52,250 nucleotides of DNA, from assembly GCA_026708285.1 (NCBI GenBank), contig JAPOVF010000354.1:1-52250 (forward strand), in the 5' to 3' direction. Below, piece by piece: positions 11,246 to 42,643 of the stretch; the first letter of the stretch is position 1, and each line of letters starts with the position of its first letter. Both the position numbers and the translations under genes were made by a program. Origin of the DNA: Acidobacteriota bacterium (GTDB lineage Bacteria; Acidobacteriota; Thermoanaerobaculia; Multivoradales; Multivoraceae). The notes beneath the pieces were generated by a model that made no database searches, was not told the DNA's origin, and worked only from the letters and a program-made list of their open reading frames with translations.

Positions 11246-11259
11246 ACCGCCGCGGCGGT
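11246..11259. terminator. GC-rich palindrome between convergent genes
   Basis: ACCGCCGCGGCGGT is a perfect 14-nt palindrome filling the 13-nt gap between the stop of the flavin monooxygenase (+) and the stop of the membrane-fusion gene (-). It could form a hairpin on either RNA, but there is no U tract and almost no loop. Any terminator role (bidirectional, intrinsic-like) is tentative. Confidence 0.3.
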
Positions 11260-12461
11260 CAAAGCTCGGCCGAGACCGGCGAACCGTCGTTCAGGCTGTC
11301 GCTCGGATAGACCACGACCTGCTCACCCGGTTCAAGGCCGCCAAGAACCTGGGCTTCCCGCGCGTTTCGTTCGCCGACTTCGATCTCCCGTAGGGCCGCG
11401 CGGCCTCCCGCGACCGCGAACACCGCCCAGTTCTCGTCGCGCCGGAACAACGCCCCGGTCGGTGCCTTCAGTTCGTCCTCGCTCTCCCAGACGACAACCC
11501 GGGTTTCGACCCGGAATCCGTCGCCCAGGCCGGCCCAGACCGCAGGCGGATCGACGATGTCGATGACCACGTTCACCCGTTGCTCTTCCACCCCGAGCGC
11601 CGAGATCTTCGTAAAGCCCGACGGTTCCACCCGCCGCAGCCGGCCCTGCAACGGACGGTCGCCGCCCCATCGATCGATCAGCACGCGCTGGCCCGAGCGC
11701 ATGCGGACCGCGTCCTTCGACAGATAGTCCGTGACGACCTCGATCTTGCCCGGATCGCCTACTTCGAGCAGGGCTTCACCGGCCGGCACCACGGACTCGC
11801 TCTCCCGCACGCGACGGAGCACGACGCCCGAAACGGGCGACACGATCCGGATCGCCGTACCGTTCACATCCTCGGCGCTCTCGGCGCTGAACCGCAGCAG
11901 TCGGACCCGCGCCGCCTGCAACTCGCTGCGGGCCGTGCGCACCGCGTAGTCGGCTGCCTCGACGGCTTCCTGCCGGGTGTCGAGGTCGAGCTGGGCGCTT
12001 TCCATCGTCTCGACCGAGACGATTCCCTCCTGACTCAGCCGCAGGTAGCGTCCCGCCTCGGAACGCGAGTAGACGAGTTCGGCCGCCGCCCGCTCGTAGT
12101 GCGCTTCGGCCTGGCCCAGCGCGGCGGTCGCGGTCTGGACCGCCGCCTCCGCCTCGGCCCGGCTGCGGGCGTCGAGAAGCACCGGCGCGGACGGCAGGAA
12201 GATCGCGAGCACCGTCTCGCCGGCGACCACCGCATCGCCGGGTTCGAGTTCGATTCGAAGCACGCGGCCGGCGAGCGGCGCCGAGATGACGAACCGGTCC
12301 CGGACCCTGGTCTCGCCCTCCTCGTCGATCGTGACTTCCAGCGGTCCTCGCATGACCTCGGCCAGTTCCGCCGGCACCGGCTGCGGTCGTGTGCCGAGAA
12401 CAACGGCGGCCGCGACCACGACCAGCCCCACTCCCCACAACACCCAGCGTCGAGTCTTCAT
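11259..12461 (-). CDS. HlyD/MacA-like periplasmic adaptor (membrane fusion protein)
   Basis: A 400-aa periplasmic adaptor with one N-terminal membrane helix (VLWGVGLVVVAAAVVLG, about 6-23). The lipoyl half-motifs lie at about 62-90 (ISAPLAGRVLRIELEPGDAV) and 205-235 (IVSPVSGVVLRRV), flanking an alpha-helical hairpin (about 100-180). A beta-barrel domain follows to the C-terminus. It would link the FtsX-type permease and LolD-type ATPase encoded just upstream to an outer-membrane channel not encoded here. The gap to the permease gene is 14 nt. Last gene of the long minus-strand operon, ending at a palindrome. Confidence 0.88.
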   Translation of the reverse strand: MKTRRWVLWGVGLVVVAAAVVLGTRPQPVPAELAEVMRGPLEVTIDEEGETRVRDRFVISAPLAGRVLRIELEPGDAVVAGETVLAIFLPSAPVLLDARSRAEAEAAVQTATAALGQAEAHYERAAAELVYSRSEAGRYLRLSQEGIVSVETMESAQLDLDTRQEAVEAADYAVRTARSELQAARVRLLRFSAESAEDVNGTAIRIVSPVSGVVLRRVRESESVVPAGEALLEVGDPGKIEVVTDYLSKDAVRMRSGQRVLIDRWGGDRPLQGRLRRVEPSGFTKISALGVEEQRVNVVIDIVDPPAVWAGLGDGFRVETRVVVWESEDELKAPTGALFRRDENWAVFAVAGGRAALREIEVGERNAREAQVLGGLEPGEQVVVYPSDSLNDGSPVSAEL

Positions 12462-12475
12462 CGTTTCCTTCCCTG

Positions 12476-27549: not shown

Positions 27550-28800
27550 ATGAAGCAAAGCATCCTCTGTACCGCCGCCTGCTTCCTCGCCCTGGTCGCC
27601 TGCGCCGAACAGGACGGGCCACTCCGCCCCGGCGCCAACGACCACAAGACCCTGCAGGAGGCCCTGCTCGTCGCCGAGCCTGGGGCCGTCATCGAACTCG
27701 GCACAGGCCGCTTCGAACTCGACGCGACCCTCTCCCTCGACGTCGAGGGCGTGACGCTTCGCGGCCAGGGCATGGACGACACGATCCTGGACTTCGCCAG
27801 CCAGGCGCCGGGCACCGGCGGCGAGGGGATTCTGGTCACGGCCGATGACTTCACGGTCGAACGTCTCGCCGTCGAGAACACGCGCGGCGACGGCATCAAG
27901 GTCGAGGGCACGACCGGCGCGGCGTTTCGCAGCGTACGGGTCGAATGGACCAACGGCCCGGACACGAACAACGGCGCGTACGGTCTCTATCCGGTCCAGG
28001 TGACGAACGTCCTGATCGAGGACAGCCGGGTACGCGGCGCCTCGGACGCGGGCATCTACGTCGGTCAGTCCGCCAACGTGGTCGTGCGGCGGAACGAGGT
28101 GTGGGAGAACGTCGCCGGGATCGAGATCGAGAACACGACCGGCGCCGACGTCTACGAGAACCGGGCCCACGGCAACACCGGCGGCCTGCTCGTCTTCTCC
28201 CTGCCGGAGCTTCCGGTCAAGGACGGCCGGGACGCGCGCGTGTACGACAACGAGATCGAGGACAACAATCTGCCCAACTTCGGCAAGGAGGGAGCGATCG
28301 TCTCCACGATTCCCGCCGGTTCGGGGGTCATCGTCATGGCCAGCGACAACGTCGAACTCTTCGGAAACCGGATCCGGAACAACCAGAACTCGAACCTGGC
28401 GGTGATCTCGTACCTCTCGACCGGGCGCGCCTACAACGATCCCGGCTACGACCCGTACACCGAAGGCATCTACATCCACGACAACGAGTTCGTCGGCGGC
28501 GGCGACGGCCCGAACGGAGCCTTCGCGGACGCGTTCGTCGAACTGGCCGGCGGCACCTTCCCGGACATCGTCTGGGACGGCGTGGTCAATCCGGGCCGGC
28601 TCGTCGATGGCGCGGTGCCGGATGAACTACGCCTCTACATCGAAGACAACGGGGACGCGGACTTCGTCAACCTCGACCTCGGGGCCGTGTTCGCGGGCGG
28701 CCAGCCGGACGTCAGCACCGATCTGGCGGCCCACCAGGGCGCGCTGCCGGCGGTGCCGCAGCCGGTCGACCTGGGGGCGGCGACCGGTGGCGCTGTGTAA
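27550..28800 (+). CDS. Right-handed parallel beta-helix lipoprotein (partner of SO2930-type cytochrome)
   Basis: A 416-aa protein with a lipoprotein-like N-terminus (FLALVAC, Cys near residue 18). A long run of beta-helix coils follows: VTLRGQGMDDTILDF, IYVGQSANVVVRRNEVWENV and IEIENTTGADVYENRAHGNT are typical of NosD/CASH-type repeats. The following gene encodes a diheme cytochrome of the SO2930 type; beta-helix and SO2930-type genes are known as recurring neighbours. Beta-helix proteins often bind polysaccharide or act as scaffolds. The 14-nt overlap with the cytochrome gene supports a joint function, which is not known. Confidence 0.85.
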   Translation: MKQSILCTAACFLALVACAEQDGPLRPGANDHKTLQEALLVAEPGAVIELGTGRFELDATLSLDVEGVTLRGQGMDDTILDFASQAPGTGGEGILVTADDFTVERLAVENTRGDGIKVEGTTGAAFRSVRVEWTNGPDTNNGAYGLYPVQVTNVLIEDSRVRGASDAGIYVGQSANVVVRRNEVWENVAGIEIENTTGADVYENRAHGNTGGLLVFSLPELPVKDGRDARVYDNEIEDNNLPNFGKEGAIVSTIPAGSGVIVMASDNVELFGNRIRNNQNSNLAVISYLSTGRAYNDPGYDPYTEGIYIHDNEFVGGGDGPNGAFADAFVELAGGTFPDIVWDGVVNPGRLVDGAVPDELRLYIEDNGDADFVNLDLGAVFAGGQPDVSTDLAAHQGALPAVPQPVDLGAATGGAV

Positions 28801-29950
28801 CCGCGGGTCTTCTGGCCCGCGGAAGACAACGCGCCGGCCGTCAGGCCGGCTCCGCTCTGGCGGCCGACTCGCGATCGCCGCGCTCGCCCTGACGGGCTGC
28901 GCGACAGGCGACGGCGGTTCAGGCGACGGACCGTTCGCCCGCTACCCGGAGACGCTCTCGGCCTGGGAGCTGTTCGTCGGCGAGCCGGCTGACCACGTCC
29001 CAGCCGCCGGCGTCGAGCCCTACGACCTGAACACCCCGCTCTTCTCCGACTACGCGCTGAAGCTCCGCTTCATCCGGTTCCCCACCGCGCCGGACGGCAC
29101 CCTTCAGCCCGCTACGTACCGTGATCCGGAGCCGTTCGCGTTCCCGGTCGGCACGGTGATCGCGAAGACCTTCGCCTACCCGGACGACTTCCGGTCCCCG
29201 GACCCGGAACTGCGGCTGCTCGAAACGAGGCTTCTCATCCACGAAGAGGACGGCTGGGTCGGACTGCCCTACATCTGGAACGAGGAGCAGACCGAAGCGG
29301 AACTGGTGATCGTCGGCGGTCCTCTCGACGTCTCGTGGGTCGACGGCAGCGGCCGGACGGTCGAGCACACCTACCGGGTGCCGAACACGAACCAGTGCAA
29401 GACCTGTCACCGCACCGACGGCGAACGGCTGCTGCCCATCGGTCCCCACGCCGCTCAGTTGAACCGCAAGTCCGTCTACGCCGACGGCGGCGAGCCCGGC
29501 CGCGCCGAGAATCAGCTAGCCCGCTGGCGGCGCCTCGGCCTGCTCGAGGACGCCCCGCCGCCAGCCGAAGCACCGCGGGCGCCGGTCTGGAACGACGCCA
29601 CGACCGGCAGCCTCGGCGAGCGCGCCCGCACCTGGCTCGACATCAACTGCGCCCACTGCCACAACCTCACGGGGAGCGGGCGCATTTCAGGACTCGACCT
29701 GCGCGCGGCCCACGACGACCGGACCCGGCTCGGCGTTTACAAGCATCCGGTCGCAGCCGGTCAGGGCACCGGCGACCGGCTCTACGGCGTGGTGCCCGGC
29801 CGTCCGGACGAGTCGATCCTCGTCTACCGGCTCGAGTCGGTCCATCCCGGCGTGATGATGCCGGAGCTCGGCCGCGGCCTCGTCGATACCGAGGCGGTCG
29901 CGCTGATCCGCCAGTGGATCGAAGAGATGGAACCCGGAACCGAAGCCTGA
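28787..29950 (+). CDS. SO2930-family diheme c-type cytochrome lipoprotein
   Basis: A 387-aa protein starting at a GTG within the end of the beta-helix gene. A basic stretch and a hydrophobic run lead to the lipobox ALTGC (Cys near residue 37), then PYDLNTPLFSDYALKLRFI, the family hallmark. Two heme motifs are visible: CKTCH (about residue 205) and CAHCH (about residue 289). The C-terminal part (DLRAAHDDRTRLGVYKHP, VMMPELGR) also fits the family. The frame stays open upstream to 28607, but those codons lie inside the beta-helix gene. Likely an outer-membrane or periplasmic electron carrier working with its neighbour. Confidence 0.85.
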   Translation: MALCNRGSSGPRKTTRRPSGRLRSGGRLAIAALALTGCATGDGGSGDGPFARYPETLSAWELFVGEPADHVPAAGVEPYDLNTPLFSDYALKLRFIRFPTAPDGTLQPATYRDPEPFAFPVGTVIAKTFAYPDDFRSPDPELRLLETRLLIHEEDGWVGLPYIWNEEQTEAELVIVGGPLDVSWVDGSGRTVEHTYRVPNTNQCKTCHRTDGERLLPIGPHAAQLNRKSVYADGGEPGRAENQLARWRRLGLLEDAPPPAEAPRAPVWNDATTGSLGERARTWLDINCAHCHNLTGSGRISGLDLRAAHDDRTRLGVYKHPVAAGQGTGDRLYGVVPGRPDESILVYRLESVHPGVMMPELGRGLVDTEAVALIRQWIEEMEPGTEA

Positions 29951-29952
29951 CC

Positions 29953-29969
29953 GCGACGTAGCGGGTCGC
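29953..29969. terminator. Weak hairpin between convergent genes
   Basis: GCGAC (29953-29957) and GTCGC (29965-29969) pair around a 7-nt loop in the 19-nt gap between the diheme cytochrome (+) and the Sco-like gene (-). Stem is only 5 bp and there is no T run; weak. Confidence 0.2.
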
Positions 29970-30626
29970 CTACTCCGACAGCACCTGCCGGGCACGGTGG
30001 AAGACCTCGTCCAGGCCGATCCGGTCCGAACCATAGTCGCCGCGGATACGGCCGCCCTGATCGACGAGGATCAGGCGCGTCGTATGCGCAACATCGACCG
30101 CGCCGTCCCACAGGATCAGTGCCTCACCCATCGGTTGTCCGAATCCGCCCTCGACCAGCGACCGCACCTGCTGCTCATCCCCGGTCACGAAACTCCACCG
30201 CTCGTCGTCGAGACCGTGATTTTGGGCGTAGTCCCTTAGTCGCTCGGGAGTGTCGTACGCGGGATCGACCGAGAAGCTCACAAGCCTGACACCACGGACG
30301 CCCTCCTGCCGGTACCTCAGTTCCAACTCGCGCAGCGACCCGGTCAACCGCGGACAGACGGCCGGGCAGCGGGTGAACAGGAAGGAGGCGACGTAGACGT
30401 CGCCCGCGAGGTCGCCGCTGCCGAAGGCCTCGTTGTTCTGGTCCACCAACCGCCACTCGGGCAACTGGCCTGCGACCGGCGGCGGATCCGGCTCGAACCG
30501 GAGCAGGGGCCGCAACGCGGGAATCAGCACGACACCGGCGAGGGCGGCCAGAAACCACGGATTCAGGAGCCGGCGGCGGGGTCGAATCCCCTCTCCTTCC
30601 GGCCTCTCTGCATCCTCCTCCAACAC
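29970..30626 (-). CDS. SCO1/SenC-family copper chaperone
   Basis: A 218-aa membrane-anchored thioredoxin-fold protein. TM lies at about 22-40. The copper motif is CPAVC in FTRCPAVCPRL, and the third ligand His is in VAHTTRLILVDQ near the C-terminus. Sco proteins deliver copper to CuA sites of cytochrome oxidase or act as thiol reductases. It is transcribed divergently from the ACIII-type operon, a common setting for Sco genes. The GTG at 30626 is preceded by GATAAT 8 nt upstream with no Shine-Dalgarno sequence between. No copper-containing oxidase gene is in the window, so its client is unlinked or unusual. Confidence 0.9.
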   Translation of the reverse strand: MLEEDAERPEGEGIRPRRRLLNPWFLAALAGVVLIPALRPLLRFEPDPPPVAGQLPEWRLVDQNNEAFGSGDLAGDVYVASFLFTRCPAVCPRLTGSLRELELRYRQEGVRGVRLVSFSVDPAYDTPERLRDYAQNHGLDDERWSFVTGDEQQVRSLVEGGFGQPMGEALILWDGAVDVAHTTRLILVDQGGRIRGDYGSDRIGLDEVFHRARQVLSE

Positions 30627-30653: not shown

Positions 30654-30682
30654 TTGACCGCCTCGATGGCACGCTGTACACT
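30654..30682 (+). promoter_or_regulatory. Sigma70-like promoter of the ACIII-type operon
   Basis: TTGACC (30654-30659) and TACACT (30677-30682) are separated by exactly 17 nt, the best -35/-10 pair seen in the window. Transcription would begin near 30689 and leave a leader of about 50 nt before the TTG at 30739. Confidence 0.5.
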
Positions 30683-30738: not shown

Positions 30739-31386
30739 TTGGCACAGATCTTCCCCAAGTGGACCCTCAAGGTCCCGCTGTACCTGGCGGCCGCGCTGCC
30801 TGTCGCCGGAGCCGCGGCGGTTGGCGCCGTCTGGTACTACGGTTCCCCCGAGTACACCGACGTCGGCTACCGGCCGGCGCAGCCGGTCCCCTACAGTCAC
30901 GCCCTCCATGTCGGCGAACTCGGCCTCGACTGCCGCTACTGCCACGCCTCGGTCGAAGAGTCGGCGGTGTCGAACATCCCACCGACCCAGGTGTGCATGA
31001 ACTGCCACCATGTCGCGACGCGCGAGAGCGCACTCCTCGAACCGATCCGCAAGAGCGCGGAGCAGGGCCGACCGATGCGTTGGGTGCGGATCCACAACCT
31101 GCCGGACTACGCCTTCTTCGATCACAGCGTCCACGTCGGCGCCGGCGTCGGCTGCCGGACCTGTCACGGCCCGGTCCATGAGATGGAGGTCGTGTATCAG
31201 GCCGAACCGCTGAGCATGAGCTGGTGCCTCGACTGTCATCGCGACCCGGGGCCCAATCTCCGGCCACTCGACGCCGTCACCGACATGGAGTGGATACCGA
31301 CCGGCGATCACGCTGCCTTCGCCCAGCAGGCGATCGCGGAACGTGGTCTTGCACCGCCCGAGGACTGCACGGGGTGCCACCGATGA
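30739..31386 (+). CDS. actA: ActA-like pentaheme cytochrome c subunit of alternative complex III
   Basis: A 215-aa protein with one N-terminal membrane helix (about 12-34, VPLYLAAALPVAGAAAVGAVW) and five CXXCH motifs: CRYCH, CMNCH, CRTCH, CLDCH and CTGCH. This matches ActA, the pentaheme subunit that carries electrons out of the ActB iron-sulfur chain. The TTG start begins MAQIFPKWT, the usual ActA opening, although the GGAG at 30733-30736 is only 2 nt away. The stop overlaps the ActB start (ATGA). A sigma70-like promoter lies about 60 nt upstream. Confidence 0.92.
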   Translation: MAQIFPKWTLKVPLYLAAALPVAGAAAVGAVWYYGSPEYTDVGYRPAQPVPYSHALHVGELGLDCRYCHASVEESAVSNIPPTQVCMNCHHVATRESALLEPIRKSAEQGRPMRWVRIHNLPDYAFFDHSVHVGAGVGCRTCHGPVHEMEVVYQAEPLSMSWCLDCHRDPGPNLRPLDAVTDMEWIPTGDHAAFAQQAIAERGLAPPEDCTGCHR

Positions 31387-34300
31387 GCGCGGGCAACGGC
31401 CACCGGCCGCCCAGGACCTACTGGCGGAGCCTCGAACAGGTCCGGGGCGATTCCCGGGCGACCGAGTTCCTCCACCGCGAGTTCCCACCGGATGCCTCCG
31501 AGGCGCCGGCGGAGTTGCTCGAAGACGGAATGAGCCGGCGCACCGTGCTGGCAATGCTGGGCTCAACCGCCTCCCTGGCCGGCCTGACCGGCTGCGAAGT
31601 CATCCGCCGTCCGGTGGAACACATCGTTCCCTACGTCGACGCGCCGGAAGGCATGGTTCCCGGCATACCGCTGGCCTACGCCACCACGATGCCGTTCGGC
31701 AACCGCGCCCTCGGGCTCGTCGCAGAAAGCCACGATGGCCGTCCGACGAAGGTCGAGGGCAACGAACTCCACCCGTCTTCGGGCGGCGCCTCGAGCGTCT
31801 GGGCGCAGTCCTCGATCCTCGACCTCTACGACCCGGACCGCTCGAAGACGGTGCGATTCGGTGACCAGGCGTCCTCCTGGCAGGAGTTCGTTGCCGCCTG
31901 GACCGAGGGCGACCTCGCCCCCGCCGCGGACGGTGCCGGATTGGCTGTTCTGGCCGAACCGTCTTCGTCGCCCACCATGTCGCGCCTCAAGTCGGCGCTT
32001 CTCGAGCGCTATCCCCAGGCGCGCTGGGTCACCTGGCAACCGGTCAGCGACGAGAACGCCGACCGCGGTGTCGAGTCGGAGGCCGGCGAGCACTACCACG
32101 CCCTCTTCCACCTGGAACGGGCACGGGTCCTGCTCTCCCTGGATTCCGACCTGCTGAGTACCGAGGGCGACAGCGTGCGCAACCTGCGGGGCTACTCCAG
32201 GGCCCGGCGGGCGGGCGACAACGGCTCGCGGAAGATGCTCCGGCACTACGCCGTCGACGGCGTCCACTCGCTCACGGCGGCCAACGCGGACCACCGGCTG
32301 CGGGTGCAGAGCGGTCGCGTCGCGGCCTTCGTCGCCCGACTGGGACACGCCCTCGCGGCGCAGGGCATGGAACTGCCGCTCGTGGGCGGCGCCACGGCCG
32401 CGGACATCGACGACGATTGGGTCGAGGCGGTCGCCAGGGACCTGCTCGATCACCGCGGCGCGGGCCTGATCGTCGCGGGCGATCGCCAGCCGGCGGAGGT
32501 GCACGCGGCGGTCTACGCACTGAACTCGGCACTGGGCAACGCCGGCGCGACTGTGACCTACCACAAGACGCCGGACACCGGCACTTCGAGCGCCGCCGAC
32601 CTGGCCGCGCTGGTCGCGGCGATGAACGAAGGCGCCGTCGACCGGCTGCTGGTTCTGGGAGCGAACCCGGCCTACAGCGCGCCCGCCGACCTCGGTTTCG
32701 CCGCCGCCCTCGAGCACACCGGAAGCAGCGGCGCGGTCATCCATGTCGGCACCTATCGCGACGAAACCAGCCGGTTCGCGCGCTGGCACATCCCTCTGGC
32801 CCACTACCTGGAGAGCTGGGGAGACGCGCGCACCACGGACGGCACGGCCAGCGTGGTGCAACCCCTGATCGAGCCGCTCTGGGGAGCCAGGAGCGCCCTC
32901 GAGGTTCTCGCTCTGGCCGCCCTGGGCGAGCCACGGGACGGTCGTGACCTGGTCCGCGAGACCTGGTCCGAGCTGCTCGGGCTTCCCCTCGACGACGGCG
33001 CCGAGGCGGACGCGCCGGTGCCGGCGGAGGAAGCCGCCGAGAGCGAGCCGGGGGACGGCAGCGAGGAGGCCGAAGCCCCACCCGTCGATCCCATGTCGCT
33101 GCCGTTTCCCGTCGCGCTCTCCGAGTTCGAAGTCGCCTGGCGCCGGGTGCTTCACGATGGTGTGCAGGAGGGCAGCGCCCTACCCGCCGCGGAGCTGGCC
33201 ACGGTCGCGCCGGAGGACTGCGCCGCAGCCGTTCAGGCCGCCGGCGACGCGGCCGGCCCGGGCGCTGCCGGCGAGGAGCTGGAGGTCGTCTTCCGTAGCT
33301 CGCCGGCTCTCTACGACGGGCGCTTCGCGAACAACGGGTGGCTCCAGGAACTCCCCGATCCGATCACCAAGCTGACCTGGGACAACGCGGCGCTCGTCAG
33401 CCCGGCCACCGCCGACGCGCTCGGGCTGGAGAACGAGGACCTGGTCACCGTCACCTGCGGCGAGCGGGAGCTCGAACTGCCGGTGTGGCAAGTGCCCGGG
33501 CAGGCCGACCACACGGTGACGATCGATCTCGGTTACGGCCGCGACTTCGGCGGCCGGATCGCCAGCACCGCCAACGACGAAGACCACACTCCGGGCGCGA
33601 ACGCGTATCTGCTGCGGACCTCGAACACGCTCCACTTCGGCCGCTGCTCGCTGCGGGCCAGCGGCGGCAGCTACGCCCTGGCACAGACCCAGGACCACCA
33701 CTCGATGGAAGGCCGGCCGCTGGTCAAGGAAGCGGACCTCGATTACTTCGACGAGCACCCCGACTTCGCCAATGCCCACAGCGAGAAGCCGCACGAGAAC
33801 TCGATGTGGGAGGAGTGGACCTACGAGGATTCGCCCCAGTGGGGCATGACGATCGACCTGAACGCCTGCGTCGGCTGCAACGCCTGCGTCGTCGCCTGCC
33901 AGAGCGAGAACAACGTGCCGATCGTCGGCAAGGAGCAGGTGATCGAGGGCCGGGAGATGCACTGGTTGCGCATCGACCGCTACTTCTCCGACGAGGGAGA
34001 ATCCGCCGGCATGCTCCGGGAGCTCGTCCGCGACCTCCCTGCCGAGCCGCAGACGAGCTTCCAGCCGGTGCCCTGCATGCAGTGCGAGAACGCACCCTGC
34101 GAACAGGTCTGCCCGGTCGCCGCCACGGTGCACGACAGCGAAGGCCTCAACGCAATGGTCTACAACCGCTGCATCGGCACCCGCTACTGCTCGAACAACT
34201 GCCCCTACAAGGTCCGGCGCTTCAACTACTTCAACTTCACCAAGGACACACCCGAGGTGATGAAGCTGGGCAAGAACCCGGACGTGACGATCCGCTCGCG

Positions 34301-34649
34301 GGGCGTCATGGAGAAGTGCACCTACTGCGTGCAGCGGATCAGCCGCGCCAAGGTCGACGCGAAGCAGGACGGGCGGCCCCTCGCCGACGGCGATGTGGTC
34401 ACGGCCTGTCAGCAGGCGTGTCCTGCCGAGGCGATTCGCTTCGGCGATACCACGGATGCCGCCAGCGGCGTTTCCCAGGCCAAGGCCAGCCCCCGCAACT
34501 ACAACCTGCTCGACGACCTGCACACGAAGCCGCGCACCACCTATCTGGCGAAGCTCCGGCATCCGAACCGGGAGATCACTCCGGCGCCGCCGCCGGCCGA
34601 GGATCACGGCGGCGAGGACAGCGCCGGACACGGCGAGGACGCCCACTGA
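31383..34649 (+). CDS. actB: ActB-like molybdopterin-fold/iron-sulfur subunit of alternative complex III
   Basis: A 1088-aa periplasm-facing subunit. A Tat-type signal is visible near residue 42 (MSRRTVLAMLGSTASLAGLTGC). Residues about 60-790 form the MopB-like domain, which in characterised ActB holds no molybdenum cofactor. Residues about 815-1060 are the ferredoxin-like part with cysteine blocks CVGCNACVVAC, CMQCENAPCEQVCPV, CIGTRYCSNNCP and CTYCVQRI/CQQACP, enough for four Fe-S clusters. An acidic insertion (about 580-605) carries many Glu/Ala residues. The ATG at 31383 overlaps the ActA stop, and the stop overlaps the next start by 1 nt. In ordinary ACIII the next gene is ActC (NrfD-like); here it is not. 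Confidence 0.92.
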   Translation: MSAGNGHRPPRTYWRSLEQVRGDSRATEFLHREFPPDASEAPAELLEDGMSRRTVLAMLGSTASLAGLTGCEVIRRPVEHIVPYVDAPEGMVPGIPLAYATTMPFGNRALGLVAESHDGRPTKVEGNELHPSSGGASSVWAQSSILDLYDPDRSKTVRFGDQASSWQEFVAAWTEGDLAPAADGAGLAVLAEPSSSPTMSRLKSALLERYPQARWVTWQPVSDENADRGVESEAGEHYHALFHLERARVLLSLDSDLLSTEGDSVRNLRGYSRARRAGDNGSRKMLRHYAVDGVHSLTAANADHRLRVQSGRVAAFVARLGHALAAQGMELPLVGGATAADIDDDWVEAVARDLLDHRGAGLIVAGDRQPAEVHAAVYALNSALGNAGATVTYHKTPDTGTSSAADLAALVAAMNEGAVDRLLVLGANPAYSAPADLGFAAALEHTGSSGAVIHVGTYRDETSRFARWHIPLAHYLESWGDARTTDGTASVVQPLIEPLWGARSALEVLALAALGEPRDGRDLVRETWSELLGLPLDDGAEADAPVPAEEAAESEPGDGSEEAEAPPVDPMSLPFPVALSEFEVAWRRVLHDGVQEGSALPAAELATVAPEDCAAAVQAAGDAAGPGAAGEELEVVFRSSPALYDGRFANNGWLQELPDPITKLTWDNAALVSPATADALGLENEDLVTVTCGERELELPVWQVPGQADHTVTIDLGYGRDFGGRIASTANDEDHTPGANAYLLRTSNTLHFGRCSLRASGGSYALAQTQDHHSMEGRPLVKEADLDYFDEHPDFANAHSEKPHENSMWEEWTYEDSPQWGMTIDLNACVGCNACVVACQSENNVPIVGKEQVIEGREMHWLRIDRYFSDEGESAGMLRELVRDLPAEPQTSFQPVPCMQCENAPCEQVCPVAATVHDSEGLNAMVYNRCIGTRYCSNNCPYKVRRFNYFNFTKDTPEVMKLGKNPDVTIRSRGVMEKCTYCVQRISRAKVDAKQDGRPLADGDVVTACQQACPAEAIRFGDTTDAASGVSQAKASPRNYNLLDDLHTKPRTTYLAKLRHPNREITPAPPPAEDHGGEDSAGHGEDAH

Positions 34650-35236
34650 TGCGCCGGCTGCCCGGAACCGCCGCTCTGGCCGCCGTCCTGATCCTGCTCG
34701 GCTGCCGCGGCATGTCCTCGCCCTTCCCGCCGATCCACCCGAATCCGAACATGGACTACCAGGAGCGCTACGACCCGCAGGAGTCGAGCAGTTTCTTCTA
34801 CGACGGGATGGCGATGCGCCAGCCGGTCGCGGGCACCGTGGCGCGGGGACAGCTCAACGTCGATCACCGCCTGCTCTTCGGCCGCGACGACGAGGGCTAC
34901 TTCCTGGACTCCTCCCCCGTCCCGGCGACCGACGCGGTGCTGGCCAGGGGCAGAGATCGCTACGCCATCTACTGCCAGCCCTGCCACGACGAGCGCGGCA
35001 CCGGCCAGGGCATCCTGTTCGAGCGGGCGGCCACGCCCACGGCCTCGCTTCACGACGAGCGGATCGCGGCCTACAACGACGGCCGCATGTACGACGTGAT
35101 CACGAACGGCGTCGGCCTGATGGCGGGCTACCGCTATCCGCTGACCGTCGAGGACCGCTGGGCGGTTGTCGCCTACGTCCGGGAGTTGCAGGAAGAACGT
35201 CGGACGTTGCAGGCGGAGCGTGACGCCCGCCAGTAG
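34649..35236 (+). CDS. actE: ActE-like mono-heme cytochrome c lipoprotein
   Basis: A 195-aa lipoprotein: LILLGC lipobox with Cys near residue 19, then MDYQERYDPQESSSFF and PVAGTVARG, sequences typical of ActE, and a single heme motif C109-Q-P-C-H113 (YAIYCQPCHDERGTGQG). In ACIII this subunit anchors to the complex and relays electrons. Its position directly after ActB, without ActC or ActD between, is unusual. The GTG start of the next gene follows 22 nt after the stop. Sure of the fold; the ActE name rests on context and the N-terminal motif. Confidence 0.85.
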   Translation: MRRLPGTAALAAVLILLGCRGMSSPFPPIHPNPNMDYQERYDPQESSSFFYDGMAMRQPVAGTVARGQLNVDHRLLFGRDDEGYFLDSSPVPATDAVLARGRDRYAIYCQPCHDERGTGQGILFERAATPTASLHDERIAAYNDGRMYDVITNGVGLMAGYRYPLTVEDRWAVVAYVRELQEERRTLQAERDARQ

Positions 35237-35257
35237 CGGCGCCGGAGTGAAGAGCCA

Positions 35258-37192
35258 GTGAGTAGAAACAAGATCCTCTTCGGAATCGGCGTTCTGGCCT
35301 TCGTGTCGGTGATCGTCACTGTGCGCCTGGGTGGCTTCCTGGTGGACAACGAGTATCGCCAGCCGGAGCGGCAGGTCGCCGTCGAGGAAGCGACCGGCGA
35401 AGCGGAGGCGACACCGCGCCAGCAAGGCATCGCGGACGAGCAGGCCGCCGACGAGGCGGAAGCGAGGGCCAGGCCGTACGTGGAGGCGGAGTACCGCGCG
35501 GTCCCCTTCGTCGGCAGCCGGGTGACGGTCTGGGTGCTGGCGCAACTCCACCTGCTGTTCGCGGCCTTCGTGCTCGCCGTGCCCATTTTCGCCTTCATCA
35601 TCGAGTTCATCGGCTACGTCACCGGCGAAAAGCGTTACGACCGGCTGGCCTACGAGTTCACCAAGCTGCTCTCCGTTTCGTTCTCGATGACCGCCACCTT
35701 CGGGGCGTTCCTGACCTTCGCGTTGATCATCCTCTACCCGAAGTTCACGAACTACCTGATGCACATCTTCTCGCCGACGTTCCTGCCGTACGTCCTGCTG
35801 TTCTTCCTGGAAGCGCTCTTCCTCTACAGCTACTACTACGGCTGGGGCAAGTTCGGTCCGAAGATGCACCTCTTCCTCGGCTTCATGCTGAACGTGGTCG
35901 GCACCGCGATCATGTTCATCGCCAACGCCTGGCTCACCTTCATGATGTCGCCCGGCAAGCGGGAGGACGTCGACGGCGACGGGATCCCGGACTTCGTCTC
36001 GGCCGTTTCGGAGAGCGGCGCCCTGCTGAGTCTCCGGGACGCGTTCTTCAACTTCACCTGGATGCCGATCAACATCCACCGGATCATCGCCAACGTCGCC
36101 TTCGGCGGCTCGATCGCCGCCGCCTATGCCGCCTTCCGCTACCTCCAGGCCAGGAACGACGAGGACAGGGCCCACTTCGACTGGATGGGCTACGTCGGCA
36201 ACTTCGTCGCCATCATCGCCTTCCTGCCGCTGCCATTCGCCGGCTACTACCTCGCCGCCGAGATCTACGCCTTCAGCCAGACCCTGGGCGTCCAGATGAT
36301 GGGCGGCACCTTCTCCTGGCTGTTCGTGCTCCAGGCCGCGCTGATCGGCAACCTGTTCCTGGGGGCGAACTACTACCTGTGGCTCGGCATGGGCCGGATC
36401 GAAGGCACCGCCCACTTCCATCGGTTCATCAAGTGGCTGCTCATCGCGATCGCGCTCTGCTTCGCGGTCTGGGCGACCCCCCGCTACGCGATCGCGTCCG
36501 TGTCCGAGATCGCCGCGATGGGCGGCAGCAGCCATCCGCAACTCTCCTACCTCGGGCAGATGTCGGCCAAGAACACGGCGGTCAACATCCTGATCCTGTC
36601 CACCTACATGAGCTTCCTGCTCTACCGGCGGACCGGCAAGACATCGATCCACCCGCAGAGGCAGCTTCTCGCCCGCACACAAGTGATCATCTTCGCGGCC
36701 GCCGCGGCCCTGGTCATCTTCTTCGGTGTCTTCGGCTACCACCAGAGCGTCGACGCGGCGACCCGGATCCGGTTCGCGATACCGCAGGTTTACTCGGTGC
36801 TGGCAGCGATGGTCGCGATCACCGTGATCGACCTGCCCCTGTATCGGAACGCCCGCCAGACGGGTGAAACGCAGTGGGGCAGGATGCCCGCGGTCTCGCA
36901 GTACGCCCTGATCTTCATCGCGCTCAGCTTCACCTGGCTGATGGGGTTGATGGGCTACGTCCGCTCCGGACTGCGGCAGGAGTGGCACGTCTACGGCGTG
37001 GTGCTCGACACCTCCCCCGACGCCTACACGCCGACGCTCGGCTTCGCCACCCAGATCGTCTCGGTCACCGTGCTCATCTTCTTCGGCTTGATCGGCGTCG
37101 TCTTCTGGCTCAGCAGTCTGAGCGGCAAGAAGGCATGGGAACCCAAGTCGGCCGTCGAGGCCGACCGGCTCGGGGAGGGACACGCGGCATGA
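35258..37192 (+). CDS. CydA-like (cytochrome bd superfamily) 14-TM membrane subunit
   Basis: A 644-aa membrane protein with about 14 hydrophobic helices, longer than standard CydA (about 520 aa, 9 TM). The bd core is recognisable: H98 (VLAQLHLLFAAF) fits the heme b595/d ligand, E185 (FFLEALFLYSYYYGW) the glutamate of helix 3, and H274 (NIHRIIANVAFGG) the b558 ligand. The quinol-binding Q-loop motif (GRQPW type) is absent. A DxDxDG loop (D237-D245) sits between TM5 and TM6. Gene order puts it where ActC/ActF quinol-binding subunits would be, so it may be the membrane module of this complex, taking electrons from cytochromes c rather than quinol. Function inferred. Confidence 0.82.
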   Translation: MSRNKILFGIGVLAFVSVIVTVRLGGFLVDNEYRQPERQVAVEEATGEAEATPRQQGIADEQAADEAEARARPYVEAEYRAVPFVGSRVTVWVLAQLHLLFAAFVLAVPIFAFIIEFIGYVTGEKRYDRLAYEFTKLLSVSFSMTATFGAFLTFALIILYPKFTNYLMHIFSPTFLPYVLLFFLEALFLYSYYYGWGKFGPKMHLFLGFMLNVVGTAIMFIANAWLTFMMSPGKREDVDGDGIPDFVSAVSESGALLSLRDAFFNFTWMPINIHRIIANVAFGGSIAAAYAAFRYLQARNDEDRAHFDWMGYVGNFVAIIAFLPLPFAGYYLAAEIYAFSQTLGVQMMGGTFSWLFVLQAALIGNLFLGANYYLWLGMGRIEGTAHFHRFIKWLLIAIALCFAVWATPRYAIASVSEIAAMGGSSHPQLSYLGQMSAKNTAVNILILSTYMSFLLYRRTGKTSIHPQRQLLARTQVIIFAAAAALVIFFGVFGYHQSVDAATRIRFAIPQVYSVLAAMVAITVIDLPLYRNARQTGETQWGRMPAVSQYALIFIALSFTWLMGLMGYVRSGLRQEWHVYGVVLDTSPDAYTPTLGFATQIVSVTVLIFFGLIGVVFWLSSLSGKKAWEPKSAVEADRLGEGHAA

Positions 37193-37674
37193 AGCTGTCC
37201 GTCCCGATGCCGGTCAAGATGGTCCTGCTGGTGCTCGGCACCACGGCCTTCTACATGTATCTCGGTCAGATCGTGCCCCAGAAGGAGGAGCACCCGCCGC
37301 CTCCCGTCCTGATCAGCGATGACATGACGACCGAGGACCTGGTGGAGATCGGCAGGGAGCTGGCCGAAGGCAAGGGGCAGTGCCTGGCCGCCTGCCACAA
37401 CATCGGTTCCAGCGGGCCGAGCCGGTATCCGGATCTCGGAGGCATCGGGGAGCGTGCCGCGACGACAATCGAAGGACTGTCGGACATCGAGTATCTGGCC
37501 CAGTCCTTGTACGAGCCTTCGGCATATGTCGTTCCCGGTTACGAGGACGGCATGCAGCCGATGAACGAGCCGCCGATCAGTCTCTCGGACGACGAGATCA
37601 GGGCCGTCGTCGCCTGGCTGCAGAGTCTCGGCAGTACGCCGACCGTCACCCTTGAAACGGAGCTTGGTTACTAG
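37189..37674 (+). CDS. Membrane-anchored cytochrome c with a CX3CH heme motif
   Basis: A 161-aa protein with one N-terminal helix (about 9-26) and a small cytochrome c fold. The heme site reads C65-L-A-A-C69-H70, three residues between the cysteines rather than two. The rest is normal for a class I cytochrome, including a distal-side methionine in GMQPMNEP and a terminal helix (DDEIRAVVAWLQSLG). The ATG overlaps the stop of the CydA-like gene (ATGA), so it probably belongs to the same complex. The extra residue may alter attachment or require a tolerant heme lyase. The translation in this frame is unambiguous. Confidence 0.85.
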   Translation: MKLSVPMPVKMVLLVLGTTAFYMYLGQIVPQKEEHPPPPVLISDDMTTEDLVEIGRELAEGKGQCLAACHNIGSSGPSRYPDLGGIGERAATTIEGLSDIEYLAQSLYEPSAYVVPGYEDGMQPMNEPPISLSDDEIRAVVAWLQSLGSTPTVTLETELGY

Positions 37675-37794
37675 CGCCGGTCTTCGGAACTTCCTGAAGC
37701 AATGAGGAACACCCGCCAGCCAACCGCTGTTCTAACGAGTAGCCGCACCCGCGGCAGCGGACAACCTGCCCCCGCACTCTCCCGGAACTGATTC
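37675..37794 (+). other. 120-nt gap inside the respiratory operon
   Basis: The longest gap within the operon. It contains no ORF start with a ribosome site and no convincing promoter. A small imperfect hairpin (CTTC...GAAG around 37681-37698) is the only structure seen. It could mark a processing site or a sub-operon boundary. Confidence 0.3.
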
Positions 37795-38613
37795 ATGTAC
37801 GGACTCAACCTGGTCGTCGTCCTTCCCCTCGTCGCCGTCGCCGGCGTGCTCGTCTGGCGGCGGGCGAATACGTTGACCTGGCTCCTGTTCAGCCTGATCG
37901 GGCTGTGGGCGTTCTTCAAGTTCGGCTTCATCGTGCCGATCCCGCAGTCCGTCGCCACGATCTACCTCGGGATCACCGGCCTCGCGCTCGTCTGCTACGC
38001 CTCCTCCAGCCGCGAGCGGTTGGCGGAGACGGTTCAACCGATCGTGCGCCTGATCGTGGAGCCGCGGTACCGCCTCGCCCTGGCCGGACTCCTCATCGCC
38101 TTGCCGGCGCTCGCCGCCTACAACGTCTACGCCGACCTGACCGCGCCGCTCGAAGCACCGGGCTTCGGCCGGGAGATCCACCCGCCGCCGCCGACGGAAC
38201 TCACGGTCCATGACGAGACGCTCGACATGGCGACGGCCGACAACCCCTACCTCCACTACCACGAGGACGATCCCGAGGCCTACGAGCAGCACCTCGAGAA
38301 CGGCCGCCGCATCTACTACGAGAACTGCTTCTGGTGCCACGGCGACGGCATGGGCGGCGACGGCATGTTCGCCCATGGACTGAATCCGGTACCCAGCAAC
38401 TTCAACGACGTCGGCACGTTGCCGATCCTGCAGTCCTCCTACGTGCACTGGCGGATCGCCAAGGGCGCACCCGGTCTCCCGGCCGGCGGCACTCCCTGGG
38501 ACAGCGCGATGCCGGCCTGGGAGAAGTTCCTGACCACCGAGGAGATGTGGGACGTCAACCTGTTCATCTACGACTTCAACGGCTACCAGCCGCGCGCCCT
38601 GGGGCAGCACTGA
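37795..38613 (+). CDS. Membrane cytochrome c with four N-terminal helices
   Basis: A 272-aa protein. Four hydrophobic helices fill residues about 3-125. A periplasmic domain then carries one heme motif C178-F-W-C-H182 and a distal methionine region (PWDSAMPAWEKFL). The polytopic anchor is unlike ordinary mono-heme cytochromes. The ATG at 37795 follows the 120-nt gap and lacks a good ribosome site. The stop overlaps the next start by 1 nt (TGATG), linking it to the diheme/EB_dh-like protein. Probably an electron-relay subunit of the same complex. Confidence 0.82.
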   Translation: MYGLNLVVVLPLVAVAGVLVWRRANTLTWLLFSLIGLWAFFKFGFIVPIPQSVATIYLGITGLALVCYASSSRERLAETVQPIVRLIVEPRYRLALAGLLIALPALAAYNVYADLTAPLEAPGFGREIHPPPPTELTVHDETLDMATADNPYLHYHEDDPEAYEQHLENGRRIYYENCFWCHGDGMGGDGMFAHGLNPVPSNFNDVGTLPILQSSYVHWRIAKGAPGLPAGGTPWDSAMPAWEKFLTTEEMWDVNLFIYDFNGYQPRALGQH

Positions 38614-40412
38614 TGACCGCCTGCATCAGGAAGGGCATCGCCGCCGCCTTCGCCGCGCTTCTGGTCGCGCCCGCCGCCGCCCAGGTCGACCTCGGCACGG
38701 AAGAGCAGCGCGCCGCCGGCAAGGTCGTCTACGACAAGTACTGCGGCCAGTGCCACGGCGACGCCGGCGACGGCTACGGTTACGCCACCCCGCGGGTGCA
38801 GCCGAAGCCGCGTGACTTCACGACCGGCAAGTACAAGTTCCGCACGACGCCGAACGGCATGCTGCCCTCGGACGACGACCTGCGCCGGATCATCGAGATC
38901 GGAGCCCCCTACACGTCGATGCCGGGCTGGCCGAACCTGACCAGCACCGAGATTCAGAACGTCATCTACTACATCAAGTCCTTCTCGCCCGACTTCGAGA
39001 ATCCGGACCGCTACGGCGAGCCGATCGACATCCCCCGGCCGCTCGAATCGACGGCGGAGTCGATCGCCCGTGGACGGGTCGTCTACGAGGAGCAGGGCTG
39101 CGCCGCCTGCCACGGCGACGTCGGACGCGGCGACGGTCCCTCGGCTCCGACCCTGGTCGACGACGCGGGCGACCACATCCGGGCCGCCGACCTGACCCAG
39201 CGCTGGACCTACCGCGGCGGGCCCACCAAGGAAGACATCTACCGCACCTTCTCCACCGGGCTCAACGGCACGCCGATGCCCTCCTACGCGGACTCGCTCG
39301 AAGTCGAGGATCGCCAGCACCTGGTGAACTACGTCTACTCCCTTGGAGAAGCCGACGACCCGAACTACGGCACCCTGATCACCGCCGCCTGGACCGAGGA
39401 GGCGATCGATCTCCAGGACACCGAAGCGCTCGACACCCTCTTCGAGACCGCGCCGATGACGCGCTTCCCGCTGATCGGCCAGATCACGGAACCGGGACGG
39501 AACTTCTATCCCTCCGCGACGTCCATCGAGGCTCAGGCCGTCTACAACCGGGGCGAGATCGCCTTCCGCGTGCGCTGGAACGACCTGCGCGCCGACAACA
39601 CGGGCAGGAACAACCCGAGCCTGGAAGTGCCGATGTGGGACGAGGACAACGACATCGTGGCAACGGGAGACGAAGGCGACGACGGCGGCTTCTTCGGCGT
39701 CGAGGAGGCGCCCGCGGACGATGCCGGCTTCTTCGGCGTCGAGGAAGTGGAACCCCAGGACGACGCCAGCTTCTTCGGCGTCGAGACGGTGGACGACAGC
39801 GCCGACGACTTCTTCGGCACGGGCGACGACTTCTTCGGCGCCGGCGAGGCCGCAAGTGACGGCGCCGAGTTCTCGGACGCCGTCGCGCTCCAGTTCCCGG
39901 CCTCCCTGGCGCCCGAGGACACTCCCCAGCTCAAGCCGTACTTCCTGTTGGGCGATGCGCAGAACCCCGTCGACCTGTGGTTCGTCAACCTGACCTACGG
40001 TGTCGCGGACACCTTCCGGGGCCGCGGCAGCGAGGCGATCGAGCCGACCGAGGCCGACATCGTCGAGGCGGTCACTTCCTACGACCAGGGCGAGTGGACC
40101 GTGACCTTCAAGCGGCGCCGGGCGTCCCGCGCCGGCGTCAGCTTCGCCGAACAGCAGTACACCCCGATCGCCTTCAGCGTCTGGGACGGCTTCAACCGCG
40201 AACGCGGCAACAAGCGGGCCCTGTCATCCTGGTTCTACGTCTACACCGAGCCCAGCGTGCAGCAGACCGCCACCATTCCGATGCTGCGCGCGGCGCTCAT
40301 CGTGCTCGCGATCGAACTGCTCATCGTGTTCCTGGTTCGCCGGCGGGCGCGCCAGGGAACGGCCGAGGAAAGCGCCGGCGGCCTGACCGGCACCGAGGCC
40401 CCCGCCGTCTGA
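38613..40412 (+). CDS. Diheme cytochrome c fused to an ethylbenzene-dehydrogenase-gamma-like heme domain, with FFG repeats
   Basis: A 599-aa exported protein with a signal peptide (cleaved after APAAAQ, residue 24 or so). Two class I cytochrome c domains have C44-G-Q-C-H48 and C163-A-A-C-H167. Residues about 265-555 resemble the EB_dh/NxrC/DdhC gamma domain that binds a b heme. This domain is interrupted by an acidic stretch with FFG at 360, 373, 387, 400 and 407. A C-terminal membrane anchor follows (about 565-585, MLRAALIVLAIELLIVFLV). The frame is open earlier, but the ATG at 38613 overlaps the preceding stop and starts the signal peptide. Such gamma subunits pass electrons between Mo/W enzymes and cytochromes; no Mo catalytic subunit other than ActB is here. 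Confidence 0.82.
   Translation: MTACIRKGIAAAFAALLVAPAAAQVDLGTEEQRAAGKVVYDKYCGQCHGDAGDGYGYATPRVQPKPRDFTTGKYKFRTTPNGMLPSDDDLRRIIEIGAPYTSMPGWPNLTSTEIQNVIYYIKSFSPDFENPDRYGEPIDIPRPLESTAESIARGRVVYEEQGCAACHGDVGRGDGPSAPTLVDDAGDHIRAADLTQRWTYRGGPTKEDIYRTFSTGLNGTPMPSYADSLEVEDRQHLVNYVYSLGEADDPNYGTLITAAWTEEAIDLQDTEALDTLFETAPMTRFPLIGQITEPGRNFYPSATSIEAQAVYNRGEIAFRVRWNDLRADNTGRNNPSLEVPMWDEDNDIVATGDEGDDGGFFGVEEAPADDAGFFGVEEVEPQDDASFFGVETVDDSADDFFGTGDDFFGAGEAASDGAEFSDAVALQFPASLAPEDTPQLKPYFLLGDAQNPVDLWFVNLTYGVADTFRGRGSEAIEPTEADIVEAVTSYDQGEWTVTFKRRRASRAGVSFAEQQYTPIAFSVWDGFNRERGNKRALSSWFYVYTEPSVQQTATIPMLRAALIVLAIELLIVFLVRRRARQGTAEESAGGLTGTEAPAV
39690..39839 (+). repeat. Five FFG repeats in an acidic linker (protein-level tandem repeat)
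   Basis: TTCTTCGGC occurs at 39690, 39729, 39771, 39810 and 39831, in frame, spaced 39, 42, 39 and 21 nt. The first three repeats share FFGVE followed by Asp/Glu/Ala-rich sequence. The spacing suggests recent expansion of a 13-14 residue unit inside the EB_dh-like domain. Confidence 0.8.
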
Positions 40413-40477
40413 CCTGAGCTTTCTCGATACCGACCGAATCTCTGACCCGACACTCCGTCAACACAAGAGACATCACC

Positions 40478-42643
40478 ATGTACAAGACGATCTACGTCCC
40501 CGTCGACAACTCGGACTACTCGAACCAGGCGATCGCTTCGGCGGTCGAGCTGGGCCGCAGGTTCGACTCCACGATGGTCGGCTGCCACGTCTACGCGGCC
40601 AGCATGCACGACTACCGGTTCAAGCAGATGGAGTACACCCTGCCGGACGAGTACCTGGAAGAGACAGAACTCGACCGCCAGCGGAAGATCCACGACTCGC
40701 TCATCACGATGGGGCTGGAGCTCATCTCCGAGAGCTACCTCGAGCCGATGAAGGCGACTTGCTCTGACGCCGGACTCGAGTTCGAGCCGAAGATGATGGA
40801 CGGCAAGCACCACGTCGAGATCGTCCGCGACATCCGCGAGTCCGGCTACGACCTGACCGTGCTCGGAGTGATGGGCATCGGCCGCGTCCGCGACACGCAG
40901 ATCGGCTCGGTGTGCGAGCGGGTCGCTCGCACCGCCGATCGGGACGTGCTGGTCATCAAGCACCTCCCGGCGAAGTCCGGGGCCACGAACGGCAACGGCA
41001 ACGGACACGGCCAGCAGGCGGAGGCCGACGGCCGCGACACGATCCTGGTCGGCGTCGACGGTTCGCCCCAGTCCTTCGGCGCGCTGATGACCGCGATCGA
41101 CCTGGCGAAGACCTTCGGCAAGAAGGTCGAGGCGATCTCGGTCTACGACCCGTACCTCCACTACTCGGTGTTCAAGGGCGTGGTCAACGTGCTGACCGAG
41201 CGCGCGGCGAAGATCTTCCGCTTCGAGGAGCAGAACCAGCTCCACGAGGAGATCATCGACACCGGCCTGGCGCAGATCTACCAGTCCCACCTGGATGTCG
41301 CCGAGACGATGGCGAGGGAAGTCGACGTCGAGCTGACGAAGACCCTGCTCGACGGCAAGGCGTTCCAGAAGGTCCTCGACCACGCCCGCAAGAGCGATCC
41401 CTGGATGCTCGTCATCGGCCGCGTCGGTGTTCACAGCGACGAGGGCGAGTCCGGCCTCGGCAGCAACGCCGAGAACCTGCTCCGGACCTGTCCGTGCGAC
41501 CTGCTCCTCACCACCCGTCTCGAGTACCCGGAACTCGACGTCAAGGCCGAGGAGAGCATTCGCTGGACCCCCGAGGCCGAGGAGCGCTTCACGCGCGTTC
41601 CGGAACAGGTGCGCGGCATCGCCCGCACCGCCCTCTACCGCCTGGCGGTCGAACAGGGTCACAGCGTGATCTCGAGCGACGTGCTCGACGAGGCGATGGA
41701 CCGCTACATGCCGAAGTACACCGCCCGCGAGACGGAAGCTCTGGCCGAGCAGGTCGCCCTGCAGCTCGCACGCAGCCGGCCCACGTTCATCTGCAGGAAG
41801 TGCGGCGTCACCTCGGCCGAGCCGGATCCGGTGCGCTGCGGCGTCTGCGGCGGTGACTCCTTCGAGCAGATCACGGAGGAGATGCTCGACCGCATCGCCG
41901 AGATGGAGGGGGGGCTCGAGGTCGAGACGACCTACGACGGCCGCAAACTGAAGTGGACCGCCGACGCCCGCCTGGCGCTCAAGACGATCGAGGACGCCTA
42001 CCGCCGCCGCCGCGCCAAGGCGCGGATCGAGAAGAAGGCGCGGATGAGCAAGCTGCCCACCGTCACCTTCGAGTTCGCCCGCGTGATGATCGAGGATGAG
42101 ACCGGCGAGCCGGTGACGATCGAGGCCCGCGAGAGGGCGACCGAGGCCAACGGGAGCAGCGGCGGCGAAGCGCCCGCGGACGAGCGCAAGCTGATCGCCC
42201 GCGACGGCGACCGCGTGCCGCTCCTCTCGAACCACGAGTGGACTGCCGAAGCCGTCGAGCGCATCCTCCGGGTTCCGGCCGGCTTCATGCGGGACCGCAC
42301 CCAGGAGCGCGTCGAACTCGTGGCCCGCGAGAAGCACGTCTCCCGGATCGGCATCAAGACGGTCGAAGAGGGCATCGAACTCGGCCGCAAGCTGATGGAG
42401 CAGATGATCGCGGCCTACGAGCTCGACAAGAAGGACGAGTCGCCTGGCCAGGAGGTCGCCAAGGCCGAAGCGCAAGCCGCAACCGCGGCCGGCAGGTGCC
42501 CCTTCTCCGCTCTCGCCGAAGCCGGCGCAAGCGAAGCGCAGGTCGAGGCGGCGAAGGACGCGAAGGCCGGCACCTACCTGAACGAGGTCGGCCTGATGTC
42601 GGCGCTCGACGAGAAGCGCAAGGCCGGCGAACCGGAAGCCTGA
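40478..42643 (+). CDS. Tandem universal stress protein fused to PCP_red-like and zinc-ribbon modules
   Basis: A 721-aa soluble protein. USP domain 1 (about 1-165) opens MYKTIYVPVDNSDYS; USP domain 2 (about 188-350) opens ILVGVDGSPQSF. A PCP_red-like module follows (about 361-412, WTPEAEERFTRVPEQVRG). Next is a zinc ribbon with C439-x2-C442 and C454-x2-C457, a divergent W-T-A-D-A-R module near 493, another PCP_red-like module (about 588-640, WTAEAVERILRVP), and a tail with C674-P-F-S. It follows the respiratory operon by 65 nt. PCP_red is known as the C-terminal domain of light-independent protochlorophyllide reductase ChlB. Role here unknown; an assembly or regulatory factor is a guess. Confidence 0.82.
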   Translation: MYKTIYVPVDNSDYSNQAIASAVELGRRFDSTMVGCHVYAASMHDYRFKQMEYTLPDEYLEETELDRQRKIHDSLITMGLELISESYLEPMKATCSDAGLEFEPKMMDGKHHVEIVRDIRESGYDLTVLGVMGIGRVRDTQIGSVCERVARTADRDVLVIKHLPAKSGATNGNGNGHGQQAEADGRDTILVGVDGSPQSFGALMTAIDLAKTFGKKVEAISVYDPYLHYSVFKGVVNVLTERAAKIFRFEEQNQLHEEIIDTGLAQIYQSHLDVAETMAREVDVELTKTLLDGKAFQKVLDHARKSDPWMLVIGRVGVHSDEGESGLGSNAENLLRTCPCDLLLTTRLEYPELDVKAEESIRWTPEAEERFTRVPEQVRGIARTALYRLAVEQGHSVISSDVLDEAMDRYMPKYTARETEALAEQVALQLARSRPTFICRKCGVTSAEPDPVRCGVCGGDSFEQITEEMLDRIAEMEGGLEVETTYDGRKLKWTADARLALKTIEDAYRRRRAKARIEKKARMSKLPTVTFEFARVMIEDETGEPVTIEARERATEANGSSGGEAPADERKLIARDGDRVPLLSNHEWTAEAVERILRVPAGFMRDRTQERVELVAREKHVSRIGIKTVEEGIELGRKLMEQMIAAYELDKKDESPGQEVAKAEAQAATAAGRCPFSALAEAGASEAQVEAAKDAKAGTYLNEVGLMSALDEKRKAGEPEA

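Follow-up and report, generated by a model that had tools for sequence, protein, structure and literature searches.

Probable encoding of an alternative complex III at two loci, its electron-transfer half beside a bd-like gene module, in an Acidobacteriota bacterium

The window analysed here is a stretch of 52,250 nucleotides (positions 1–52,250 of contig JAPOVF010000354.1, assembly GCA_026708285.1) from an Acidobacteriota bacterium. It carries eight genes, all on the + strand, in the order ActA-ActB-ActE-CydAL-cytX-cytC4H-EBdh-USP/PCP_red. The first three encode subunits of alternative complex III (ACIII), and the next four form a module around CydAL, a membrane protein related to the CydA subunit of cytochrome bd. 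The features are as follows.

30739..31386, + strand: ActA, pentaheme cytochrome c of 215 aa with five CXXCH motifs (6f0k_A, 228 bits)
31383..34649, + strand: ActB, B1 domain and iron-sulfur B2 domain (6f0k_B, 890 bits); start inferred at ATG 31383, search query 31374–34649
34649..35236, + strand: ActE, monoheme cytochrome c (6f0k_E, 181 bits)
35258..37192, + strand: CydAL, 14-helix bd-like membrane protein of 644 aa (Pfam, model helices, fold search)
37189..37674, + strand: cytX, monoheme cytochrome c, CX3CH here (heme motif)
37795..38613, + strand: cytC4H, hydrophobic N-terminal half (helices by eye) and monoheme cytochrome c
38613..40412, + strand: EBdh, two class I cytochrome c domains and an EB_dh domain, with a C-terminal hydrophobic stretch by eye; search query 38610–40412
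40478..42643, + strand: universal stress protein (USP) with PCP_red, a frequent neighbour (Pfam, neighbourhood)
30654..30682, + strand: promoter-like TTGACC-N17-TACACT upstream of ActA (one found, 0.7 expected)

The best matches of ActA, ActB and ActE are chains 6f0k_A, 6f0k_B and 6f0k_E of the Rhodothermus marinus ACIII. ActA is a pentaheme protein (255 CXXCH motifs across 51 rows), and ActE is monoheme by motif count and the sole strong ActE match in the genome. Fifteen Cys residues of the ActB B2 domain are invariant in all 18 split or joined and all 17 contiguous ActB sequences; the ligand count, in which Cys alone was counted, fits one [3Fe-4S] cluster and three [4Fe-4S] clusters. Single copies are present of ActE, of ActF, and of ActB and ActC of the R. 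marinus type, further act-type matches in the genome being weak or part of the C4 and C66 NrfD sets.

The block contains no ActC, ActD or ActF, as an earlier note on this DNA had observed, and all three are found elsewhere in the same genome. Contig C209 carries ActC (6f0k_C, 684 bits), ActD and ActF (6f0k_F, 293 bits), followed by a caa3-type cytochrome c oxidase (COX) cluster, and its act locus is devoid of ActA, ActB and ActE. ActD was called from its gene place and its likeness to the ActD-place genes of relatives. All six subunits, ActA to ActF, are encoded in the genome, and the split between the two loci falls on the border between the electron-transfer module (A, B, E, H) and the quinol/ion module (C, D, F) of ACIII (PMC5928083). 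W81, H138, D168 and D249 of the C209 ActC are present in 15/15 orphan ActC proteins; paired by position, they correspond to W82, H139, D169 and D253, which PMC5928083 gives for the quinol site. The genome probably encodes an ordinary Rhodothermus-type ACIII at two loci, with the electron-transfer half beside a cytochrome-fed bd-like module. The note had read the block as ACIII subunits joined to a bd-like protein "instead of" ActC/D/F; this substitution fails because ActC, ActD and ActF of the same R. marinus type are encoded on C209, a finding that the note itself had named as refuting it, and an ACIII devoid of them was rejected once that locus had been found.

A match of at least 770 bits, counted as orphan-type ActC, was found in 31 genomes of the class, and the surroundings of ActC were read in 19 of them. 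ActC stands without ActA, ActB or ActE in 19/19 (L150, L152 and L161 end less than 1 kb away), and COX1–COX3 lie at most 5 kb from it in 16/19.

The set on contig C4 of the same genome (L010, 319–5255) was considered as an alternative source of ActC for the ActB of the window. It is less likely, since ActA, B1 and B2 proteins accompany the C4 ActC, which shares 38% identity with that of C209. Together with L184, L185 and L186, it represents a second, minimal ACIII-like or Qrc-like set with an ActA bearing five CXXCH, split B1 and B2, and ActC, and with no ActD, ActE or ActF match nearby.

The two halves appear to be inherited together. In a survey set of 148 genomes of the class, CydAL had a match of some kind in 82 and a strong one (at least 600 bits) in 35, the genomes devoid of a strong CydAL giving only weak matches of about 52 bits or less. 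Counted by hand from the rows listed, CydAL is present in 30 of the 31 genomes with orphan-type ActC, which occurs in just one of the 113 CydAL-negative genomes (G023). In G004, ActC (64%) continues through ActD and ActF into ActA-ActB, and with this genome 31 of the 35 CydAL genomes are covered; G097 has a partial ActC match (71%, 656 bits), below the 770-bit line. A search for NrfD (PF03916) as proof of ActC-free genomes was uninformative, because 147/148 genomes hold some NrfD. ActB and ActC distances agree, with r = 0.82 over 35 rows and r = 0.86 over 10 thinned split rows (0/2000 permutations in each case). The trees were built from 36 pairs, and the distance test from these minus the C4 row; L164, L172 and L180 were left out, as were the truncated ActB sequences of G021 and G047. 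Sister pairs common to the ActB and ActC trees include G056/G057, G024/G025 and G078/window, G024/G025 being weakly supported in the ActC tree.

Several observations weigh against an ACIII encoded in two parts. The 770-bit threshold was set after the list had been seen, and four of the 35 CydAL-positive genomes have no full matching ActC (G036, 93% complete; G069, 88%, with only a weaker ActC match; G083, 94%; G088, 82%). The split rows do not form one clade in either tree, and L105 falls with contiguous loci for ActB and with split loci for ActC, G004 and L107 being placed inversely.

The linkage of the act genes varies among relatives. In L107 (Hydrogenedentota), ActC-D-F-A-B-E-CydAL-cytX-C4H-EBdh-USP form one run, and L160 (from G004) shows C-D-F-A-B before the contig ends. 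ActC-D-F are divergent from A-B-E-CydAL in L105, and F-D-C follow EBdh on the opposite strand in L092. The usual A-B-C-D-E order is found in 19 of the 20 comparison loci L163–L182, as far as the stretches reach. Locus L187 (G087, 5918–13717) has A-B-E-cytX-C-D-F and no CydAL, cytX thus being retained in a full ACIII cluster.

These data bear on the composite complex proposed in the earlier note, in which CydAL would take the place of ActC/D/F alongside ActA, ActB and ActE, the whole running as an oxidase or a reverse-flow dehydrogenase. The block devoid of ActC/D/F, the four genomes lacking a full matching ActC, the fixed A-B-E-CydAL order and the ActE-CydAL fusions described below fit such a complex. 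However, ActC/D/F of the same type stand on C209 without A/B/E, are co-inherited with the window half and keep the quinol-site residues, ActC/D/F and ActAB are contiguous in L107 and L160, and all 15 iron-sulfur Cys of ActB are retained. The composite complex is accordingly very improbable; what survives of it is the lasting link between ActABE and the bd-like module. The lack of ActC/D/F in an act cluster does not by itself imply a new complex, since separate loci can encode the two structural modules of ACIII.

The gene list and order given in the earlier note stand. The order ActA-ActB-ActE-CydAL-cytX-cytC4H-EBdh-USP is held in 20/20 fetched loci, as far as contigs reach, across CydAL identities to the window of about 63–93%. 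Fifteen of the 20 contain the full set of eight genes, the other five being cut by contig ends (L052, L054, L055, L056 and L062); L055 has no USP in its remaining 2.2 kb, and 2.4 kb separate EBdh from USP in L062. A wider scan covered the neighbourhoods of the best 80 of 150 relatives. CydAL is followed by cytX, C4H and EBdh in all 67 loci whose downstream stretch reaches 3.6 kb or more, and ActB lies upstream of CydAL in 33 of the 59 loci that extend 4.8 kb or more upstream; the four-gene module is therefore a unit of its own, which ActABE accompanies in one set of lineages. Going by record titles, Acidobacteriota lineages, including 'Ca. Multivorans', account for 27 of the 33 ActB-positive loci. 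The 26 ActB-negative loci include Rhodothermales, Bacteroidota, Calditrichia, Fibrobacteria, one Myxococcota and one Verrucomicrobia; three of them (L137, L138 and L140) have other act genes and a COX cluster upstream, within 10 kb. In L142, uncounted because its downstream stretch is too short, a cytX-C4H-EBdh set lies upstream of CydAL. L121 (3979–8774) carries, next to its first set and on the other strand, a second, divergent one (CydAL 44%, cytC4H, EBdh and cytX).

ActE and CydAL form a single open frame in L100 and, by eye and Pfam, in P0076. In L114, L117 and L119 (Lentisphaeria, Fibrobacteria/Fibrobacteres), a cytochrome c domain with no ActE match precedes CydAL in one frame. These frames make periplasmic c-hemes the most likely source of electrons for CydAL. 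The wiring of ActABE to the bd-like module is a good hypothesis. A split ACIII and an independent bd-like module could also be neighbours only, making no contact and exchanging electrons through a soluble cytochrome c. The 26 of 59 testable loci in which ActB is not upstream of CydAL favour this arrangement, as does the dispensability of Flavobacterium johnsoniae ActE for transfer to aa3 (PMC8552683), but it seems rather doubtful in view of the two ActE-CydAL fusions and the order kept over such a range of CydAL identities.

Residues 87–335 of CydAL match Pfam Cyt_bd_oxida_I, the match ending at 236 of 418 profile positions, and CydAL is the sole PF01654 match in the genome. A structure search found the CydA fold across residues ~80–628, and the model has 14 long helices (counted by the analyst), in agreement with the 14-TM CydA-like protein of the earlier note. 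Of the canonical cytochrome bd quinol oxidase, the CydA fold is present and the CydB subunit is missing: CydB (PF02322) was not found in this 93.57% complete genome, the control search being positive in 10 of 14 genomes. The protein search used the best 120 of 6849 matches, of which 27 entered alignment A1, and 20 together with 33 locus rows entered alignment A2. Two CydAL residues are invariant in 54 rows: H98, which aligns with E. coli H19, and E185, which aligns with E107. The heme ligands of E. coli CydA are taken here to be H19, H186, M393 and E445. H186 aligns to G284, ten residues from the invariant H274, while M393 is unaligned and E445 falls on L564, the alignment failing beyond the N-terminal helices; as no counterparts of M393 and E445 were found in it, O2 reduction by CydAL is a putative function. 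E. coli E99 is replaced, and K252 and E257 of the Q-loop align to A385 and F390 in a poorly aligned region. Comparison of the model helix list with a published description indicates helices in place of the Q-loop (PMC3578206).

CydAL may therefore be questioned as an oxidase, and its module might return periplasmic cytochrome electrons to quinone or pass them to another acceptor. The helices replacing the Q-loop, the lack of a CydB match and the substituted or unmatched residues E99, M393 and E445 are consistent with this, and bd-like proteins have been described as enigmatic in function, with reverse flow proposed for them and relatives found in the anaerobic Kuenenia (PMC3578206). The retained CydA fold and the invariant H98 and E185 argue for an oxidase, and the caa3 genes beside ActCDF imply that the host probably respires O2. 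A non-oxidase role is considered unlikely.

If the ACIII is indeed encoded in two parts, ActA, ActB and ActE from the window would assemble in trans with ActC, ActD and ActF from C209. Electrons from quinol would pass from the ActC site to FeS1 of ActB, the ActA hemes and ActE, and could then be transferred from ActE to the c-hemes of the bd-like module (CydAL, cytX, cytC4H and EBdh), on to the b/d-type hemes of CydAL and presumably to O2. The complex could also feed the caa3 oxidase beside ActCDF. An ActE-docked, cytochrome-c-fed bd-type oxygen reductase, with one ActCDF module serving both caa3 and bd-like oxidases, is put forward tentatively. A second, still unassigned acceptor has been suggested for the ActE of F. 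johnsoniae (PMC8552683), and CydAL is a candidate for an acceptor of this kind. Many phyla have bd-like (OR-N) proteins; here, one is tied to a defined donor, ActE, by gene order and fusion, which makes its role testable.

Other features of the block call for brief mention. The CX3CH motif of cytX is real in the window, as the note had stated, but 67 of 81 homologue rows have CXXCH and 14 have CX3CH. Heme b has a Met ligand in ethylbenzene dehydrogenase (EBDH) and subunit C of nitrite oxidoreductase (NXR-C). The corresponding motif is visible in 51 of 100 rows of the EB_dh domain, and the domain may be devoid of heme b, since the ligand position is Met in one of these rows and another residue in 50. 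The USP/PCP_red protein, which has PCP_red matches as well as two stretches of universal stress type, is probably accessory or regulatory; it often adjoins the bd-like module in other phyla too. Overlaps of 1–4 nt, described in the note as prevailing, occur at four of the seven junctions (A/B, B/E, CydAL/cytX and C4H/EBdh), the others being gaps of 21, 120 and 65 nt; the overlaps depend on the start codons picked by the analyst. The TTGACC-N17-TACACT sequence that the note had read as a promoter exists, but carries no evidential weight because shuffles of the region yield about as many such sites (0.7 ± 0.8; one observed, not significant). Just upstream of ActA, at 28607–30626, lie an open frame bearing two CXXCH motifs and a - strand gene judged SCO1/SenC-like by eye.

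A literature search (titles, abstracts and excerpts, most subscription literature lying outside its coverage) retrieved no description of ActABE-CydAL in Acidobacteriota, which is weak evidence of novelty. ACIII beside bd-like genes is already known: in Nitrospirales, an OR-N5 CydAA' gene lies directly downstream of ACIII (PMC12342949), which weakens the earlier claim of an undescribed system. The Nitrospirales loci resemble the window in that a bd-like oxygen reductase gene adjoins the ACIII genes, but they have actABCDE with a split actB and no actF/G (PMC12342949), whereas ActB is fused here, the cluster has no ActC and C/D/F stand at another locus; this comparison concerns gene content rather than CydAL clades. 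By helices and fold, rather than by clade placement, CydAL is like the OR-N/14-helix bd-like proteins. Those of Nitrospina, Nitrospira and Kuenenia share its 14 helices and CydA-like N-terminus, but have an NXR cluster as neighbours (PMC3578206). Among the terminal-oxidase clusters TO_1 to TO_4 of Ca. Manganitrophus, TO_1 combines a bd-like protein with a periplasmic cytochrome b, and TO_3 and TO_4 contain complex III/ACIII-like parts (PMC9040806), a likeness drawn from description only. The ACIII of R. marinus (6f0k) is the best match for ActA, ActB and ActE of the window and for ActC and ActF of C209, and its heme motifs, iron-sulfur Cys and quinol-site residues are retained, but the genes are here split over two loci, with A/B/E preceding a bd-like module. 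A parallel for the split is ACIII-Cr of Chloroflexus aurantiacus, encoded by an actABEG operon without actCDF, CDF being thought to be shared (PMC9316378). Both systems have an ActABE operon that lacks CDF and would draw it from another place; in Chloroflexus, CDF is thought to be borrowed from a second, full operon, and the excerpts of PMC9316378 mention no bd-like module, whereas CDF here forms an operon of its own.
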